DNA of 34,832 bases from Cytophagia bacterium CHB2. GTDB lineage: Bacteria > Zhuqueibacterota > Zhuqueibacteria > Zhuqueibacterales > Zhuqueibacteraceae. The stretch covers positions 1 through 34,832 of the forward strand of contig SZPB01000016.1 in NCBI GenBank assembly GCA_030263535.1. The letters run 5' to 3'. Below the pieces are notes generated by a model that saw only the letters and a list, made by a program, of their open reading frames with translations, was not told the DNA's origin and searched no databases. Of the stretch, positions 16,082-25,958 are shown in pieces (positions within the stretch are counted from its first letter, which is position 1; the number at the start of each line of letters is the position of its first letter). A program made the translations under genes and the position numbers.

Positions 16082-17143
16082 TCAACAAATGCGGGGCAAC
16101 TGCTCGCCGCTCAACACATCAACGATGCGGTTTGCGCCAATGACGCTCGTCATGGTTACCAATCCAGATGATTCTTTCTTCACCTCGCCAATGATGCGGG
16201 CGCCTTCACCCAGCGGATGGGCGCGCATCACGCGCAGCGCCCGTTCGACCTCCGCCGGCGGCACAAAGGCGATGAAACGGCCTTCGTTGGCGATATAAAG
16301 CGGATCCAGGCCAAGGATTTCGCATGCGCCTTGCACGTCTTCGCGCACGGGAATGTTTTTTTCCTCAAGATTGATTTGCACACGCGCGGTTTCGGCAATC
16401 TCGTTTAAGGCGCTGGCCAGGCCGCCGCGGGTGAGATCGCGGAGGCAATGAATTTCAATATTTGCGGCAAGCAACGTTTGCACCAAATCCGCCAGCGGCG
16501 CGCAGTCACTCTCAATCTCGCTCTCGAACGCCAAGCCTTCCCGCATTGCCATGATCGCGATGCCGTGCCGGCCGAGATCTCCGTTCACAAGAACGAGATC
16601 GCCCGGCTTGACGCTCGCTGGAGAAATAACAAGATCATGTGTAATAACGCCAATGCCGGCGGTGTTGATAAAAATGCCATCGCCCTTGCCGCGATCGACG
16701 ACTTTGGTATCGCCGGTTACAAGCTGAACATTCGCATGTGTTGCCGCGCGTTGCAGGGATTGCACGACGCGCCAGAGCGTCTCCATCGGCAAGCCTTCTT
16801 CGAGAATGAATCCTGCGCTGAGATACAATGGCTGCGCGCCGCACATGGCAAGATCATTCACGGTGCCGTAAATCGACAACGTTCCAATATCTCCTCCCGG
16901 GAAAAAAAGCGGATGCACGACAAAGGAATCCGTCGTGAAGGCAAGCTTTCGGCCTTCCAAATTGAATACCGCACCATCGTGCCGTGATTCTAGCAATGTA
17001 TTGTTGAATGCAGGCACGAACATCTTCTCAATAAGCTGGTGCATGAGTCTGCCCCCGCCGCCGTGCGCGAGCAGAACGCTCGGATAATCATGGATTGGAA
17101 TCGGGCAGGAAAGCCCGAATTCGACATTCACTTTTTGCTGCAT
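16082..17143 (-). CDS. hypE: Hydrogenase maturation protein HypE
   Basis: HypE dehydrates the carbamoylated C-terminal cysteine to a thiocyanate, the source of the cyanide ligands on the Fe of [NiFe] hydrogenase. 353 residues, of the PurM-like ATP-binding family: [14 protein letters not shown] near the start, [57 protein letters not shown]. The chain ends in PRIC with cysteine as the very last residue, as required. It comes after hypD in transcription order. HypF, which carbamoylates this cysteine, is not encoded in the window and must lie elsewhere. No clear ribosome site is seen before ATG 17143. Confidence 0.96.
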
Positions 17144-17443: not shown

Positions 17444-18535
17444 TTACGTTTTTACTTTTCTATAACGATAGTATGCCGCGCACGCGCCTTCCGACGAAAC
17501 CATGGTCGCGCCCAGCGGGCGCTCCGGTGTGCAGCGCACGCCGAACGCCGGGCATTCATGCGGCTTCTTCACGCCCTGCAACACCAAACCGCTGAGACAC
17601 TCCGATGATTCTTCGCGTGCAGAATTTGTCACCTCAAAGCGCTTTTCGGCATCGAAGGCCGCATAAGCCTCGCGCAAACCCAAACCGCTTTGAGGAATCT
17701 CGCCCACGCCGCGCCATTTGCGCGGAACGACGCAAAAGACTTCACGCATGAGCTGTTGCGCCGGTTGATTGCCGGCGCGCTGCACCGCGCGCGTATATTG
17801 ATTCTCAACTTCGGCGCGGCCCTCTTCCAATTGTTTGATACAGAGATACACGCCTTGCAGAATATCCACCGGCTCGAAACCGGTGACGACGATCGGAACA
17901 TGATATTTGGCAGCAAGCGGATAATACGCTTCGTAACCCATCACCGTGCAAACATGTCCGGCCGCCAAAAAACCTTGTACACGATTATGCGGCGAGGCGA
18001 GAATAGCCTCCATGGCCGGCGGCACCAACACATGCGAAACTAAAACGGAAAAATTCGTGACATTTTGCTCCGCCGCTTGATAAATCGCCATGGCATTAGC
18101 CGGCGCGGTGGTTTCGAAGCCCACCGCAAAAAACACCACCTGCCGATCCGGATTTGCGCGCGCGAGTTTGAGCGCATCGAGCGGCGAATAGACGATGCGA
18201 ACATCGCCGCCGGCTGCTTTGACGCTGAGCAAATCTTTTTCGGAGCCGGGAACGCGCAACATATCACCAAAAGAACAAAACACCACCTCAGGCCGGGAGG
18301 CAATGGCAATGGCTTTATCAATTAATTCCAACGAGGTGACGCACACCGGGCAGCCCGGACCGTGCACCAACGTGATCGTTTTGGGCAGCAATTCATCAAT
18401 GCCGAATTTGACGATGGCATGGGTTTGCCCGCCGCACACTTCCATGATGGTCCACGGCTTGGTGACCAGGCGCGCGATTAAATCGGCATAACGCCGGGCG
18501 GCTTTGGCATCGCGATATTCGTCGATATATTTCAT
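17444..18535 (-). CDS. hypD: Hydrogenase maturation protein HypD
   Basis: Scaffold, with HypC, on which the Fe(CN)2CO unit is built; carries a [4Fe-4S] cluster. 363 residues, normal length. Conserved segments: [21 protein letters not shown] with Cys34, [27 protein letters not shown], and C-terminal cluster cysteines in [32 protein letters not shown] and [10 protein letters not shown]. Same strand as hypC and hypE but separated from each by about 200-300 bases of repeat-rich sequence, unlike the tight hyp operons of many bacteria. The ribosome site before ATG 18535 is weak. Confidence 0.97.
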
Positions 18536-18733: not shown

Positions 18734-19006
18734 TTACGTTGACCGGCGCGCCGGGTCATCCGCCTCCTCCAACTCTTTTAGCTCATCCATTTCTTTGAGA
18801 TAATCAAAGACGCGCCTCGCTTCACCTTCATCTAACGTATTAATTGCGAAGCCAACATGTACGATGACATAGTCGCCGACTCTGGCTTCCGGCGTATACG
18901 CGAGGTTCACTTCTTTCAGAATGCCGCCAAAATTCACTTTCCCCGTGCGCAGCAGCGGCTCGTCGCCGTTAATACTCATGATTTTTCCCGGCACTGCGAG
19001 GCACAT
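18734..19006 (-). CDS. hypC: Hydrogenase maturation chaperone HypC
   Basis: Small chaperone that, with HypD, carries the Fe(CN)2CO unit to the large subunit. 90 residues, beginning MCLAVPGKI: the cysteine after the initiator methionine is the essential one. The beta-barrel part has VNFGGILKEVNLAYTPEARVGDYVIVHVGFAI, with a charged helical tail. AAGGAG lies seven bases before ATG 19006, so the start is secure. The 369-base gap upstream (19007-19375) holds no convincing gene; a CxxC-containing stretch there continues the hypA frame past its stop. Confidence 0.96.
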   Translation of the reverse strand: MCLAVPGKIMSINGDEPLLRTGKVNFGGILKEVNLAYTPEARVGDYVIVHVGFAINTLDEGEARRVFDYLKEMDELKELEEADDPARRST

Positions 19007-19375: not shown

Positions 19376-19645
19376 TCAATCAAACTCATCCACTTCCACA
19401 CTTTCGAGAATGATCTCTTGTGCGTGGGAATCCGTGAAATCGTTTGAGACTTCGATGTCGAGATGCGCGTTTTCGGCAATCGTGCCGCGCGAGGCGTGCA
19501 CAAAATGTTCACGGAAATGATCGGGGGACATATGCGACAACGCGCCCAATTTGACTTTAACGCCCAGCACTCTGCGGGCATGCGGCACGCGCGCCACGGA
19601 TTCGATTTTGCGCATCAAATCTGCCATCAAAGAGAATTCATGCAT
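19376..19645 (-). CDS. hypA: HypA-like nickel chaperone lacking the zinc-finger domain
   Basis: HypA delivers nickel to [NiFe] hydrogenase. The N-terminal nickel site MHEFS (His2), the middle segment VKLGALSHMSPDHFREHF and RGTIAENAHLDIE are recognisable. The protein is 89 residues against about 113-118 usually, and contains no cysteine at all: the CxxC ... CxxC zinc finger is replaced by DFTDSHAQ before the final strand EIILESVEVDEFD. A clean loop excision rather than truncation is suggested because that last strand is kept. Its start overlaps the end of the protease gene by 8 bases (ATGCATGA), so translation is probably coupled. hypB normally follows hypA, but hypC comes next here. Confidence 0.88.
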   Translation of the reverse strand: MHEFSLMADLMRKIESVARVPHARRVLGVKVKLGALSHMSPDHFREHFVHASRGTIAENAHLDIEVSNDFTDSHAQEIILESVEVDEFD

Positions 19646-20126
19646 GATTTATTGTCCTCGGTATGAATCGTAAATCAGATTGAATTTGTGCAGCAACTGT
19701 CTGCGCTGCTTTTTCGATTTCCGGTGAAAGTCTTGCGCCGGCTTCGAACGTTTTTCCTTCAATGCCATAGACGACAAGATTTTCAGGAAGCTGCTGTAAC
19801 GCCCGGGCGAGTTCCACCGCTTCTGCGACGCTGAACGCGTGCGTGGAATAATGAAAAAAACTGCTGGGCATGGGTTGTTTACCGGCATCCAAACGAAAAA
19901 CCGTTCCCGGCGCAGCGCCGGAGTGTACCGCATCGACGATGATCACATGTTCCGCGCCTTTCCAGGCTTCCATCAATGCCGCGCCCTCGCCGCTGAGCGT
20001 CAGAATGCCAACGCTTTCCGGCAGTTGCCCTTGCAGCCGCCGCGCGATGACGAGGCCAACGCCGTCGTCGCCGCGATACTCATTGCCGACGCCAATCACG
20101 AGAGTGGTTGTTGCGTTCGTTTTCAT
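19638..20126 (-). CDS. Hydrogenase maturation protease (HycI/HybD family, peptidase M52)
   Basis: Endopeptidase that removes the C-terminal tail of the large subunit after nickel insertion. 162 residues. Motifs: VIGVGNEYRGDDGVG near residue 11 (first acidic nickel ligand), IIVDAVHSG near residue 62 (second Asp), and STHAFSV near 94 (His). It lies downstream of hydA, whose chain carries a 13-residue tail after the last cluster motif, the expected substrate. It overlaps hypA by 8 bases. The 170-base gap to hydA contains MITE-like copy 2. Confidence 0.93.
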   Translation of the reverse strand: MKTNATTTLVIGVGNEYRGDDGVGLVIARRLQGQLPESVGILTLSGEGAALMEAWKGAEHVIIVDAVHSGAAPGTVFRLDAGKQPMPSSFFHYSTHAFSVAEAVELARALQQLPENLVVYGIEGKTFEAGARLSPEIEKAAQTVAAQIQSDLRFIPRTINHA

Positions 20127-20296: not shown

Positions 20297-21598
20297 CTAT
20301 TTATCTTCCGCCTCACGCTCAATATTCAACTTCAAAAAATGTGTGGCGCATGAGATGCACGGGTCATAGTTACGAATTGCCTGTTCGCATTGCCACGTGA
20401 GTTTTTCTTGCGGGAGATGCAAAAATTTGGGCACATAATTGCGGAGATCGTTTTCAATCGTCTTTTGATTTTGTGAGGTCGGCGGAACAATCTTGGCGTC
20501 GAGAATCGCGCCGTGTTCGTCAAGACGGTAGCGATGATACAAAATGCCGCGCGGCGCTTCCGTGCAGCCATGTCCCACCGCAGCCCTGGGCGTCATTTCG
20601 ATGAACGGCTGCGCGGGAGGTTCATATGCCGCGATAATGCGGAGCGCTTCGTCACAAGCATACACAATTTCAACGCTGCGCACGATAATGCTTTGAAACG
20701 GATTGCGGCATTCCGAGCCAATGCCGGCTTCGTGTGCGGACTCTTGCGCGAGCGGCGAAAGGCGGTCGAAATTCAAATTATAACGCGCCATTGGCCCGAC
20801 AAAATAGGCGCCGCGCGCCTTGAGCACGGAATGCAGCGCATTGGAGTGTTGCACATGCTCTTCGGCAAAATGCGATTCATACTCGCGCACGGCAATATCC
20901 AGTCCTTTGTTTGAAACGATCCGGCCTTCATTAAAGGGATATTCTTCCGGATGCCGGAGGCTGACGAATTCATAATCCTGATCAAACTCAGGGAAGGGCA
21001 GCTTTGCGACCCAGCGCACGGTTGCAAGCGCCGCGTCGCGCGCCCATTTCAGGCGCTCGGCGAGCTGCAGCAAATCTTGCTTATCCGGCGCTTTATAAAA
21101 TCCGCCGACGCGTATGTTGATGGGATGAATTTCACGGCCGCCCACAAGCGTAACGATCTCGTTGCCGATTTTTTTAAGCTGCAGGCCGCGTTGCACGACT
21201 TCGGGATAATCTTTCGCCATTTGAATGGCGTCATCATAACCGAGAAAATCCGGCGCGTGCAGCATGTAAACGTGCAACGTGTGGCTTTCGATCCATTCCC
21301 CGCAATAGATCAGCCGGCGCAACGCGCGCAACTGCCCTTCGACTTTTACGCCAAAGGCGTCTTCCATCGCATGTACAGCGCTCATTTGGTACGCGATCGG
21401 GCATATGCCGCAGATGCGTGCCGTGATGTCCGGCGCTTCACTGAAATCGCGGCCGCGCAAGAACGCTTCGAAGAAACGCGGCGGCTCGAAAATTTTCAAT
21501 TTCGCTTCAGTGACCGCGTTCTCTTTGATCTTGACGTACAACGCGCCTTCGCCTTCGACCCGGGCGAGGTAATCCACTTTGATGGTTTTGGTTTTCAT
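20297..21598 (-). CDS. hydA: [NiFe] hydrogenase large (alpha) subunit, group 3b type
   Basis: Catalytic subunit of a cytosolic NAD(P)-linked (sulf)hydrogenase interconverting H2 and reduced pyridine nucleotide. 433 residues. N-terminal nickel motif [19 protein letters not shown] (Cys63, Cys66; the His of the classic RxCGxCxxxH is Tyr, which I recall as usual in bacterial group 3b). C-terminal motif DPCISCATH (Cys414, Cys417, His420), followed by [13 protein letters not shown], the probable cleaved tail. Group 3b is supported by the HydB-HydG-HydD-HydA gene set and order. It starts 15 bases after hydD. Regulated probably as part of the long operon from the cytochrome gene or from an internal promoter near 24169. 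Confidence 0.95.
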
Positions 21599-21613: not shown

Positions 21614-22450
21614 TCACAAACGCGTTTCGTGCGCTTCGCTTTCCTTGCGGAACGCCTCGGCGTAGGCGTTGAATCCGCGAAAGGCGCGTACCAGATTATC
21701 TCCCGAAACGCCCAGACGGCTCCACCATTCGCTCAAGGAAGCGGTGTTGGGCGTTTCCTTCGGCCCGAAGCAACCGTAGCAGCCGCGATCATAGGCCGGG
21801 CAAATCGCGCCGCAGCCGGCATGCGTCACCGGGCCGAGGCATGGCGTGCCGTGCGCAACCATCACGCAAGTCATGCCGCGCAGCTTGCACTCCTGACACA
21901 CACTGTGCTGCGGCGTATTCGGCTTGCGGCCGTGCAAAAAGGCGCTGATCACTTCCACCAATTGCATTTTGTTGATCGGGCAGCCGCGCAGCTCGAAATC
22001 AACGAAGACATGATCCGCAATCGGCGTGGATTTATTCAAGGTTGAAATGTAAGCCGGTGTAGCATAAACGATGGAGATGAATTCCTTCACCTCCTTGAAA
22101 TTGCGCAATGCTTGAATGCCGCCGGCGGTGGCGCACGCGCCGATCGTCACCAAAAATTTCGAAACCCGGCGCACTTGATGAATGCGCTCGGCGTCGTGCG
22201 GCGTCGTGATCGAGCCCTCCACCAGCGAAAGATCATAGGGGCCTTTCACAAATGCGCGCGTCGCTTCGGGAAAGTTGGCAATCTCCACGGCGTCGGCCAC
22301 GGCCAACAACTCGTCTTCACAATCCAACAAACTCAATTGACAGCCGTCACACGAGGCGAATTTCCACACCGCGACTTTGGGTTTGCCGTTTTTTGTTGAG
22401 GCGGATCTTGTCCGCGTTTTTCGGCTGAGGTTTTTTGTTTTACGTTGCAT
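21614..22450 (-). CDS. hydD: [NiFe] hydrogenase small (delta) subunit, group 3b type
   Basis: Electron-transfer small subunit carrying FeS clusters next to the large subunit. 278 residues; no Tat signal, so cytosolic. Proximal cluster [15 protein letters not shown] (Cys34, Cys37), [12 protein letters not shown] and [18 protein letters not shown]; further cluster cysteines in [32 protein letters not shown] and [14 protein letters not shown] basic N-terminal stretch of about 20 residues precedes the domain. The ATG lies 3 bases after the hydG stop, so the two are tightly coupled. Confidence 0.94.
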
Positions 22451-22453
22451 AGT

Positions 22454-23284
22454 TCAAATTTCCCGCTTGGCCAGCAGTTCCCGGAGCTGATCGTACCGGA
22501 ACACCGGCCCATCTTTGCAAATAAACGTGTGCCCAAACTGGCAATGTCCGCACAATCCAATGGCGCATTTCATGTTGCGCTCCATGGAAAGAAAAATATT
22601 ATCCGCGCGGATGCCGCGTTTTTGCAGCTCGAGCACGGTGAAGCGCATCATAATCTCCGGGCCGCACACCATGGCAACGGTATTGGCGGGATCGAAGGGC
22701 GCTTTGGGAACAAGGGTGGTGACGACGCCGACATTGCCGCGCCACGCGCCGGCTGCGCGATCGACGGTGACATAAACATCGAGATCGAGACGTGCACGCC
22801 AGTTCTCCAATTCACGCCGATATAAAATATCTTCCGGACTGCGGGTGCCGTAGAGCAAAACCACTTTGCCGTATTTTTCACGCTGCCTGAGCACGGCATA
22901 CAACGCCGGCCGCAAGGGCGCCAGCCCAATGCCGCCCGCCACAATCACCACATCATTGCCCAGGGCTTCTTGCACCGGCCAGTGCGTGCCAAACGGCCCG
23001 CGCACGCCCAGGACGCTGCCGCGTTTCAATTTGCGCATGGCTTTGGTCACAGTGCCGACGGCGCGCGTGGTATGCACCAGCTTTTCCGGCTTGCCGGGAT
23101 CTCCGCAAATGGAAATTGGCACTTCGCCGACGCCAAAAACGTAGAGCATGTTGAATTGGCCGGCGGCAAAAGCAAACTCACCGGCGCCGTTTGCCGGGCT
23201 GAGTTCGAGTGTAAACGTGTCATACGTATTCTGCTGCACACGCTGCACACGAAACGATGCCGGTAACATGGGATCAGGTGTCAT
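22454..23284 (-). CDS. hydG: Hydrogenase gamma subunit: FAD/NAD(P)-binding oxidoreductase with [2Fe-2S]
   Basis: Diaphorase-type subunit passing electrons between the FeS chain and NAD(P). 276 residues of the ferredoxin-reductase fold: FAD domain about 10-100, NAD(P) domain about 105-225 with [19 protein letters not shown] and VCGPEIMM, and a C-terminal [2Fe-2S] motif Cys240, Cys245, Cys248, Cys256. Similar to PyrK and the gamma subunits of group 3b/3c hydrogenases. No clear ribosome site before ATG 23284; the upstream 300-base gap holds a 14-base palindrome and a 145-base palindromic element. Confidence 0.93.
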
Positions 23285-23584: not shown

Positions 23585-24061
23585 TCATCGCGATGACTGC
23601 GAATGATTCGCGCCGTAAATATCCAGCAATTGCAAACGTGTGGCTTCCAGCCGTTGCTCGATAATGTGCGAGAATCGCTTTAAAAGCTCATATCCCAGAT
23701 GATGATCTTCCTCGCATTTGGTGCGCAGGCATTTGGCGTCAAGCGCGATGGCCCGCGTCAGCTCCACCGCACGCGCATCGAAATGCCACTGGTAAGGCGG
23801 AATGAGCCAGGACCAGCCCAGCACTTCGCCGTCGCCAATCGTTTGAATGGTAATAGGGCCGCGCTCAGCCGCAAAAATATCCACCGCGACTTTGCCATGC
23901 CGGATGATGTAAAACGTGTTGGCTTCTTCGTCTTCATGAAACAAAAATTGTCCGGCTTCAAAGCGCACGTTGGAAGCGCAGCCAACGATAAGCTGAATGT
24001 AGTGAGGCGCGAGCCCCTTCACGAACGGATGTTCGGCTAAAATCGGTTCGAGTGTTTCCAT
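23585..24061 (-). CDS. Cyclic-nucleotide-binding-fold protein with altered ligand cassette, no DNA-binding domain
   Basis: 158 residues from ATG 24061, which has AAGGAG seven bases upstream (an in-frame TTG 18 bases earlier is less likely). A single CAP-type effector domain about 5-110 (LAPHYIQLIVGCASNVRFEAGQ, TFYIIRHGKVAVDIF) and a helical tail; there is no helix-turn-helix. In the phosphate-binding cassette the usual GE...L and PRxA are replaced by GWSWLIPPYQWHFDARA (about 82-98), so the glutamate and arginine that hold cAMP in Crp are absent. It probably senses something else or acts through protein contact. Placed between hydB and hydG on the same strand, it may modulate the hydrogenase post-translationally (inference). 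Confidence 0.85.
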   Translation of the reverse strand: METLEPILAEHPFVKGLAPHYIQLIVGCASNVRFEAGQFLFHEDEEANTFYIIRHGKVAVDIFAAERGPITIQTIGDGEVLGWSWLIPPYQWHFDARAVELTRAIALDAKCLRTKCEEDHHLGYELLKRFSHIIEQRLEATRLQLLDIYGANHSQSSR

Positions 24062-24168
24062 CTGGTTTCTCCTTGGCAAACGCTTTGTAACGAAAAATCT
24101 AATGAACCCGCCCTGTCACTTTTAGGGTAAGCGCCGCGCCCGGCTGATTGAGTGCGCCGCGCGGTTTG

Positions 24169-24254: not shown

Positions 24255-25385
24255 TCATCTCGGTTTACCGGCTTTGTTGGACGATTCATTTTCTCGCATG
24301 GCTTGCACTTCTTCGGTGAGATCGATTCCCACCGGGCACCAGGTGATGCAGCGACCGCACCCGACGCAGCCGGAGACGCCGAATTGATCAATCCAGGAGG
24401 CGAGCTTGTGGGTTAGCCATTGGCGATAACGCGCTTTGACCGAAGGGCGCACACTGCCGCCGTGAATGTAGGAAAAATCCATAGTGAAACAGGAATCCCA
24501 CTTGCGCCAGCGCTCCGCATGTTCACCAGTCAAGTCCGTCACATCCTCAACCGTGGCGCAAAAACAGGTTGGGCAAACCATCGTGCAGTTGGCGCAGCTC
24601 AAGCAGCGTCCGGCCACTTCTTCCCAGCGCGGATTGTCGGTATTGCGGTACAGCAATTCTTTAATGCCCTCCGTATTCAACTTGGGCTTCATTTGCTGCG
24701 CGGCGCGCGCGACAACTTCATCGATCTTCGCGAGATCTTCCGCGCTCGCCTCTTGATGCGGAATTTCCTGAACGATCCCGGCGCCGCGCTCCGAACCGGT
24801 TTCGACGATGAAATAATGCCGTTTGCCTTCCACCACTTCGGTGAGCGCGAGATCGAAGCCACCCGTTGCTCGCGGCCCGGTGTTCATCGACGCACAAAAA
24901 CAATTTCCACCCGCCTGCCCGCAATTGACCGCGATGATGAAAATCTTTTCGCGGCGCGTGCGATAGGCCGGATCAACATAACTGCCGCCCATAAAGATTT
25001 TGTCTTGAATGGCGAGCGCGTGCAACTCGCAGGCGCGCACGCCGAGAAAGGCGCGCAGCGGAACCTCGTCCGATTCCGGCGCAATGTTGAAGCCCTCGCT
25101 GGTGCGTTGCGCCTGCCAGAGCCGCAACGTGGGCGGGTGCAGGAATCGTTTCCACGAGTGCGGGCCGACGACGTAACCAAACAATGCTGGATCCGCGCGT
25201 TTCTGCAAGCGGTAAGCGCCTTTCTTCTGCTCATCCGTTACACCCTGCGGCAAATCCCGGCTCGAGCGCAACGAATCGTAGACAATCGCGCCGTCGCGCA
25301 CGCGTGGCCCAATAATTTCTTGAAAGCCGCGGCGCTGCAGAGCCTCGAACAGAGCATCCAGGGCGTTTCGTTCAATGATTTTCAT
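24255..25385 (-). CDS. hydB: Hydrogenase beta subunit: 4Fe-4S dicluster protein, group 3b type
   Basis: FeS electron-transfer subunit of the cytosolic hydrogenase. 376 residues. The N-terminal part has the family block [20 protein letters not shown], and [18 protein letters not shown]; the C-terminal part has two [4Fe-4S] sites, [16 protein letters not shown] about residue 263 and [17 protein letters not shown] about residue 342. This is the plan of HydB / anaerobic sulfite reductase A proteins. It starts 18 bases after the cytochrome gene stop, with AAGG before ATG 25385, so it is probably co-transcribed with that gene. It is separated from hydG by the cNMP-fold gene, an unusual interruption of the beta-gamma pair. 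Confidence 0.93.
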
Positions 25386-25403: not shown

Positions 25404-25958
25404 TTACTTCGTCTTCAAATAGCCGCTTTTGGAGAATCGCTTCGGGTCGCGTAAAAAAGCGGTTCTGCAATCCGGGCATTCAAAATAAAAAGTCTTGTCC
25501 CCGTATTGCGCCCACAAATTGGTTTTCCGCGCAACTGTCGTACTCAACGGCGCGCCGCACACCGGACAAATGTCATCCAGATTCTTGAGATTCACCGGGG
25601 TGTTGGCCTTGCCGTGCAGCGAAGCAATATACTGGGTCACGGCGCTAATCTCTTGCGGCGTCAGCGCAATCGGCGGCATCAGGGTCGAATCTTCCAGCGT
25701 TTGCAAATGTTTCTTTACATAAAGCGTATCCATTGCCAGCATCAATGCGGAAAGCTCGCCGCCTTGGAACTCTTCTCCGCCATGCGCAATGCTATGACAT
25801 GCGCTGCAATCTTCTCTAAGAAAAATTTGTTCGCCCAGGGCGACTTGTTCCGCCAGATAGCCCGGTGAGGGCAGATGATCGTCTCCTGATTTGCAGCCGG
25901 CGCCGAGCCACAGCATTAGCGCCCAACTCGACACGATTACAACTTTTAAAAATCGCAT
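25404..25958 (-). CDS. Lipoprotein cytochrome c with C-terminal TRASH/YHS-like metal-binding domain
   Basis: 184 residues. Lipobox LWLGAGC puts the lipidated cysteine at residue 22, so the mature protein faces the outside of the cytoplasmic membrane or the periplasm. One class I haem c domain: CSACH at 51-55 with Met94 in STLMPPIAL as the likely sixth ligand. A C-terminal module follows with CPVC at 131-134 and CPDC at 161-164 around WAQYGDKTFYFE and DPKRF, resembling TRASH/YHS metal-binding domains. AAAGGAG precedes ATG 25958. It lies 34 bases after the receiver-Usp gene and 18 bases before hydB. A role as redox or metal sensor for this locus is inference; it cannot contact the cytosolic hydrogenase directly. 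Confidence 0.85.
   Translation of the reverse strand: MRFLKVVIVSSWALMLWLGAGCKSGDDHLPSPGYLAEQVALGEQIFLREDCSACHSIAHGGEEFQGGELSALMLAMDTLYVKKHLQTLEDSTLMPPIALTPQEISAVTQYIASLHGKANTPVNLKNLDDICPVCGAPLSTTVARKTNLWAQYGDKTFYFECPDCRTAFLRDPKRFSKSGYLKTK

Follow-up and report, generated by a model that had tools for sequence, protein, structure and literature searches.

A short HypA with no zinc site, usually found without HypB, suggests a simplified nickel-delivery route for group 3b [NiFe] hydrogenases

Can a HypA protein serve a [NiFe] hydrogenase without its zinc domain and without the GTPase HypB? HypA binds nickel through its MHE motif (PMC7055735), and according to reviews all HypA proteins carry a nickel and a zinc site, while the nucleotide-dependent HypA-HypB mechanism appears to be conserved throughout evolution (PMC7055735, PMC12134894). 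In the HypAB complex of T. kodakarensis, His98 of HypA joins the MHE nickel site, and cysteine mutants of the zinc site in H. pylori HypA have reduced hydrogenase activity (PMC7055735). The question is raised by a short reading frame in the window, that is, the whole stretch of 34,832 nucleotides analysed here, which the original prediction described as a HypA with its zinc finger cleanly removed that may deliver nickel in a simplified way. The features of the locus are collected in Table 1.

Table 1. Features of the short hypA gene and the surrounding hydrogenase operon, in window coordinates.
Feature	Coordinates	Strand	Length	Basis or remark
hydB, 4Fe-4S subunit	24255..25385	(-)		profile match
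CRP-like cyclic-nucleotide-binding-domain protein	23585..24079	(-)		between hydB and hydG; same annotation on plasmids
hydG, FAD/NAD(P)-binding subunit	22454..23284	(-)		profile matches
hydD, hydrogenase small subunit	21614..22450	(-)		sulfhydrogenase delta models best
hydA, group 3b [NiFe] hydrogenase large subunit	20297..21598	(-)		sulfhydrogenase alpha models best; top PDB match HyhL 5yxy
hycI/hybD-type hydrogenase maturation protease	19638..20126	(-)		TIGR00072 128.5 bits, over cut-off; 8-base overlap with short hypA
short, zinc-less hypA	19376..19645	(-)	89 aa	PF01155 match; AF2 model similar to HypA structures
M1 H2 E3 codons, nickel-binding motif	19637..19645	(-)		invariant in alignment
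residues 38-47 (HMSPDHFREH), with gained H38, H43, E46, H47	19505..19534	(-)		alignment counts, short versus canonical
linker residues 67-77, site of zinc-loop insertion in canonical HypA	19415..19447	(-)		sister-species alignment; flanked by strands 61-66 and 78-86
hypC	18734..19006	(-)		TIGR00074 78.6 bits, over cut-off
hypD	17444..18535	(-)		TIGR00075 524 bits, over cut-off
hypE	16082..17143	(-)		TIGR02124 477.5 bits, over cut-off

The translated protein, MHEFSLMADLMRKIESVARVPHARRVLGVKVKLGALSHMSPDHFREHFVHASRGTIAENAHLDIEVSNDFTDSHAQEIILESVEVDEFD, begins with MHEFS and contains no cysteine. It matches PF01155 with 48.1 bits (E 1.3e-12, gathering cut-off 28.9) over model positions 1-67 of 112 only, and in the Pfam scan the CxxC-Xn-CxxC part of the model was left unmatched; the same N-terminal part aligns with TIGR00100, at 42.2 bits and below the equivalog cut-off of 88.1. 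Alignment to full-length HypA from sister species shows a missing block that begins ahead of the first CxxC and ends beyond the second, and the last strand continues in frame. MHE is identical in 26/26 short and 70/70 canonical HypA sequences of our alignment, and CxxC is absent throughout the short HypA sequences examined. By cut-off, MHE motif and nickel-domain fold the protein is a member of the HypA superfamily PF01155, yet it lacks what marks a canonical HypA, namely a sufficient TIGR00100 score, the CxxC-Xn-CxxC zinc site and a HypB in the same genome.

The AF2 model (pLDDT 85, pTM 0.73) consists of helices at residues 2-19 and 41-52 and strands at 25-33, 61-66 and 78-86. Foldseek relates it to HypA with a probability of 1.00 and TM scores (query) of 0.78-0.84 for the top matches, and the top 14 PDB matches are all HypA, including HyhL-HypA and HypAB complexes. 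From the topology, one edge of the sheet would hold the end of helix 1 that carries MHE, the turn at 34-43 together with the beginning of helix 2, and the linker at 67-77; H38, H43 and H47 would then lie close to H2 and to the former site of the zinc domain, a proximity read from connectivity. The earlier reading of the reading frame thus stands in its structural part: the MHE motif is retained, the final strand is in frame in the model as well, and the profiles and the sister-species alignment agree that a loop of approximately 30 residues, with every cysteine, is missing in frame.

The host genome is a MAG of 7.0 Mb in 681 contigs (100% complete, 4% contamination). A search of this genome found no HypA besides the short form and no HypB over the cut-off, the top HypB match (25 bits) being MobB-like by eye. 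Two candidates for a hidden HypB were rejected by eye: a 226-aa P-loop match that resembles MobB and a 313-aa match that resembles FtsY. Only one [NiFe] hydrogenase scored over the cut-off, that of the window, which also encodes HypC, HypD, HypE and the protease, and hypF was found at the start of another contig. Because the search returned no other HypA, no HypB and all of HypC to HypF, the nickel step of HypA and HypB is represented by this one protein and no member of the Fe(CN)2CO route is missing. The lack of hypB beside the gene, as originally noted, extends to the whole genome, and the second canonical HypA on which the original prediction could have foundered was not found there.

A MAG in so many contigs, with hypF at a contig start, invites the explanation that the gene is an assembly error, a frameshift or a decaying pseudogene, and that the real HypA and HypB are missing from the assembly. 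However, a second assembly of the same species contains the same short form, and scanning a collection of species genomes gave 22 short forms of 86-94 aa (L047-L068) at loci in other genome records, many from isolates, belonging to KSB1, Planctomycetota, Chlamydiota (Simkania), Alphaproteobacteria, Nitrosomonas mobilis, Thioalkalivibrio and Aquisalimonas. About 18 further short HypA came from 392 Planctomycetota genomes searched with a profile, with the protease gene within the 1.5 kb flanks and HydA likewise in nearly all, and the operon or its remnants are present on four Burkholderiaceae plasmids. In a tree of 85 HypA, the 26 short sequences form one side of a branch with support 100/99. 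Pairwise dN/dS is about 0.06-0.14 (for pairs with unsaturated synonymous sites), and short hypA is therefore under purifying selection. Sequencing error, the other ground on which the original prediction could have failed, or a pseudogene is ruled out by the relatives and the dN/dS values; with the C-terminal strand in frame, a single clade and 22 genomes that all lack HypB, we consider the explanation as a whole extremely improbable. The loss of the zinc finger is thus real, but it is not a local removal: judging from tree and distribution, short HypA is an old monophyletic subfamily present in several phyla and on plasmids.

A truncated HypA match in G130 was rejected as a contig-end fragment. 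The sequence at L224:8483-8722, in genome G470 of the Pseudomonadota sample, is an independent zinc-less HypA of 80 aa (MHELGLSRNI...FLIKEFEFGEIA) that falls outside the short clade and adjoins hypB, from which it follows that the zinc loop was lost more than once and that its loss is not always coupled to that of HypB.

Nor is the short family a mere deletion product, as the original prediction had it. At positions 38, 43 and 47 the 26 short forms have histidine in 21, 25 and 25 cases and the 70 canonical HypA in 1, 0 and 0, and position 46 is Glu in 26/26 short HypA, versus Phe in 65/70 canonical ones, giving a short-family consensus of LGALSH(I/M)xxxHFxEHF. The 18 Planctomycetota sequences, which had been held out, show the same pattern (H38 in 17/18, H43 and H47 each in 18/18). 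The alignments thus indicate that the short family is HypA minus the loop plus a new conserved His/Glu motif. The sole short HypA that has lost all three histidines is that of G078, a genome that also encodes full HypA and HypB (a single case). In another single case (L258), on plasmid pOLGA1 of Paraburkholderia phytofirmans OLGA172, the operon has decayed, with hypF to hypE gone, and the short HypA begins with MRE, having lost H2, and has Asn in place of H43.

The client enzyme is a group 3b [NiFe] hydrogenase with four subunits. Its large subunit HydA has the N- and C-terminal CxxC nickel-ligand motifs (ARICGIC and DPCISCATH), followed by a protease tail, and HyhL and sulfhydrogenase 1 alpha are its top PDB matches. 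The order of the short-form clusters is hydB-crp-hydG-hydD-hydA-hycI-hypA'-hypF-hypC-hypD-hypE, and in KSB1, Planctomycetota, Chlamydiota, Proteobacteria and the plasmids short hypA sits between hycI and hypF/hypC. The full order from hydB to hypE, with genes overlapping or abutting, is found on a Burkholderia savannae plasmid. No separate small CxxC reading frame that could replace the zinc domain recurs in the operons, the compact ones of which have overlapping or abutting genes. In Thioalkalivibrio (L049-L060), hypA'-hypF-hypC-hypD-hypE lies several kb or more from the hydrogenase genes, and on another contig in at least one strain; length and motif of the short HypA are unchanged there despite the separation. 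The CRP-like gene between hydB and hydG is kept in most relatives of the hydrogenase operon, species with canonical HypA included. Directly before hydB, the window encodes a cytochrome c plus YHS-domain protein (25404-25958), which is retained in sister species of the genus.

HypB was found in 0/22 genomes that have the short form only, in 3/3 that have both forms and in 53/58 that have canonical HypA only, the last set being drawn from the window's phylum. The association with the form of HypA gives a Fisher p of about 3e-15, calculated over related genomes that by our own estimate represent some ten independent lineages, and it is not strictly exclusive, as the short form stands alongside full HypA and HypB in G026, G078 and G094. 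Among carriers outside the window's phylum, the HydA of 20/21 falls in the same clade (59-71% identity), with no match in the remaining one (G099). In four sister species (G076, G077, G079, G081), the orthologous hydB-crp-hydG-hydD-hydA genes encode a HydA that is 79-83% identical, and these species have no hypA beside the protease gene; their canonical hypA lies in an operon of its own, hypA-hypB-hypF. Closely related species thus apparently mature the same type of enzyme either with HypA and HypB or with short HypA alone. The idea that the short form marks a single HydA subclade was discarded, since the label switches several times along the HydA tree and species with canonical HypA are interspersed. 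Three genomes of the same class (G020, G021, G022) encode a longer HypA (open frames of 138-144 aa); their group 3 hydrogenase is more distant, at about 40% HydA identity, no HypB match passes 1e-15, and they are possibly a case of ATP-type HypB.

Short HypA could still be served in trans by an NTPase other than HypB, either UreG or a MinD/Mrp-type ATPase like the ATP-type HypB that archaea possess (PMC12134894). The weaker HypB-like matches in relatives, at about 75 bits, were rejected as HypB because they are UreG and, in one case, MeaB. UreG is present in four short-form carriers and has been proposed as a stand-in for HypB in Nitrosococcus oceani AFC132 (PMC7285500). In most carriers, however, the host genome included, the HypB search returned no match at the level of about 75 bits that UreG would score, and no ATPase gene was seen in the operons examined, a result for the operon neighbourhoods, the genome-wide search being one with the HypB profile. 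A helper NTPase of this kind is in our view unlikely.

Alternatively, short HypA might be a docking or structural factor for HydA that carries no nickel, with free cellular nickel loading the enzyme. Added nickel partly rescues hypA and hypB mutants of other bacteria (PMC3287977), and in E. coli the large subunit can be bound by HypA even when HypB is absent (PMC7055735). We nevertheless find this rather improbable, as every intact short form in the main set has kept M1-H2-E3 and three histidines have been gained, which would be unexpected if metal binding had been lost.

The zinc loop is gone, the genome has no full HypA or HypB and the protein is conserved, and for these reasons a simplified route is the best reading of the locus; the sequences suggest such a route of nickel delivery for this type of hydrogenase. 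Short HypA is probably a functional, specialised zinc-less nickel metallochaperone that is specific to a single clade of group 3b [NiFe] hydrogenases and independent of HypB. It would bind Ni(II) at its N-terminal MHE; HypCDEF would place Fe(CN)2CO first, short HypA would then dock on the apo large subunit HydA and pass on the nickel with no help from HypB, the GTPase, and the tail of HydA would subsequently be cut by the protease HycI. H38, H43, E46 and H47 would most likely supply the extra nickel ligand(s) or the docking surface that elsewhere come from the zinc domain and HypB. His98 of T. kodakarensis HypA is a residue that we take to belong to the zinc domain. More tentatively, and as a possibility that we rate as slightly less likely than not, the family may amount to a second, HypB-free pathway of nickel insertion, in which a rebuilt His/Glu site allows short HypA alone to replace the HypA-HypB pair and the cassette has spread across phyla together with its own hydrogenase.

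Compared with known HypA/HybF proteins (PF01155, TIGR00100; H. pylori 6g81 and 2kdx, T. kodakarensis 3a43), short HypA has the same MHE and the same two helices on a three-stranded sheet, and like them it is encoded in a hydrogenase operon by the maturation protease and hyp genes; it differs in the missing zinc loop and CxxC, the gained H38/H43/E46/H47, the lack of HypB in the genome and its score below the TIGR00100 cut-off. The T. kodakarensis HyhL-HypA structures (5yxy, 5yy0) contain the nearest relative of HydA with a solved structure, HyhL, and a HypA that is one of the top fold matches to short HypA, but that HypA keeps its zinc domain and has an ATP-type HypB as partner. The nickel chaperone UreE resembles short HypA in having histidines and no zinc finger (PMC7055735), but no UreE appears at the top of the fold search, where the first 14 PDB matches are all HypA. 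Clusters of hypAFCDE with a group 3b hydrogenase and no hypB, in the same gene order, have already been published from N. oceani AFC132, Nitrospina gracilis and others, with UreG suggested as the stand-in (PMC7285500); zinc-site loss and the His motif are unmentioned there, and we liken these clusters to ours by gene order and missing hypB. A report of a zinc-less HypA was not found in the open literature, to which the search was confined, with subscription papers outside its scope. What appears to be new here is the zinc loss of HypA in hypB-less clusters, the absence of hypB itself being already known.

A natural HypA that lacks both the zinc site and HypB, compared with sister species that apparently mature an approximately 80% identical hydrogenase with the full HypA and HypB pair, offers a direct way to test the functions of the zinc domain and of the GTPase, and it would provide a smaller set of helper proteins for producing [NiFe] hydrogenases in other hosts.
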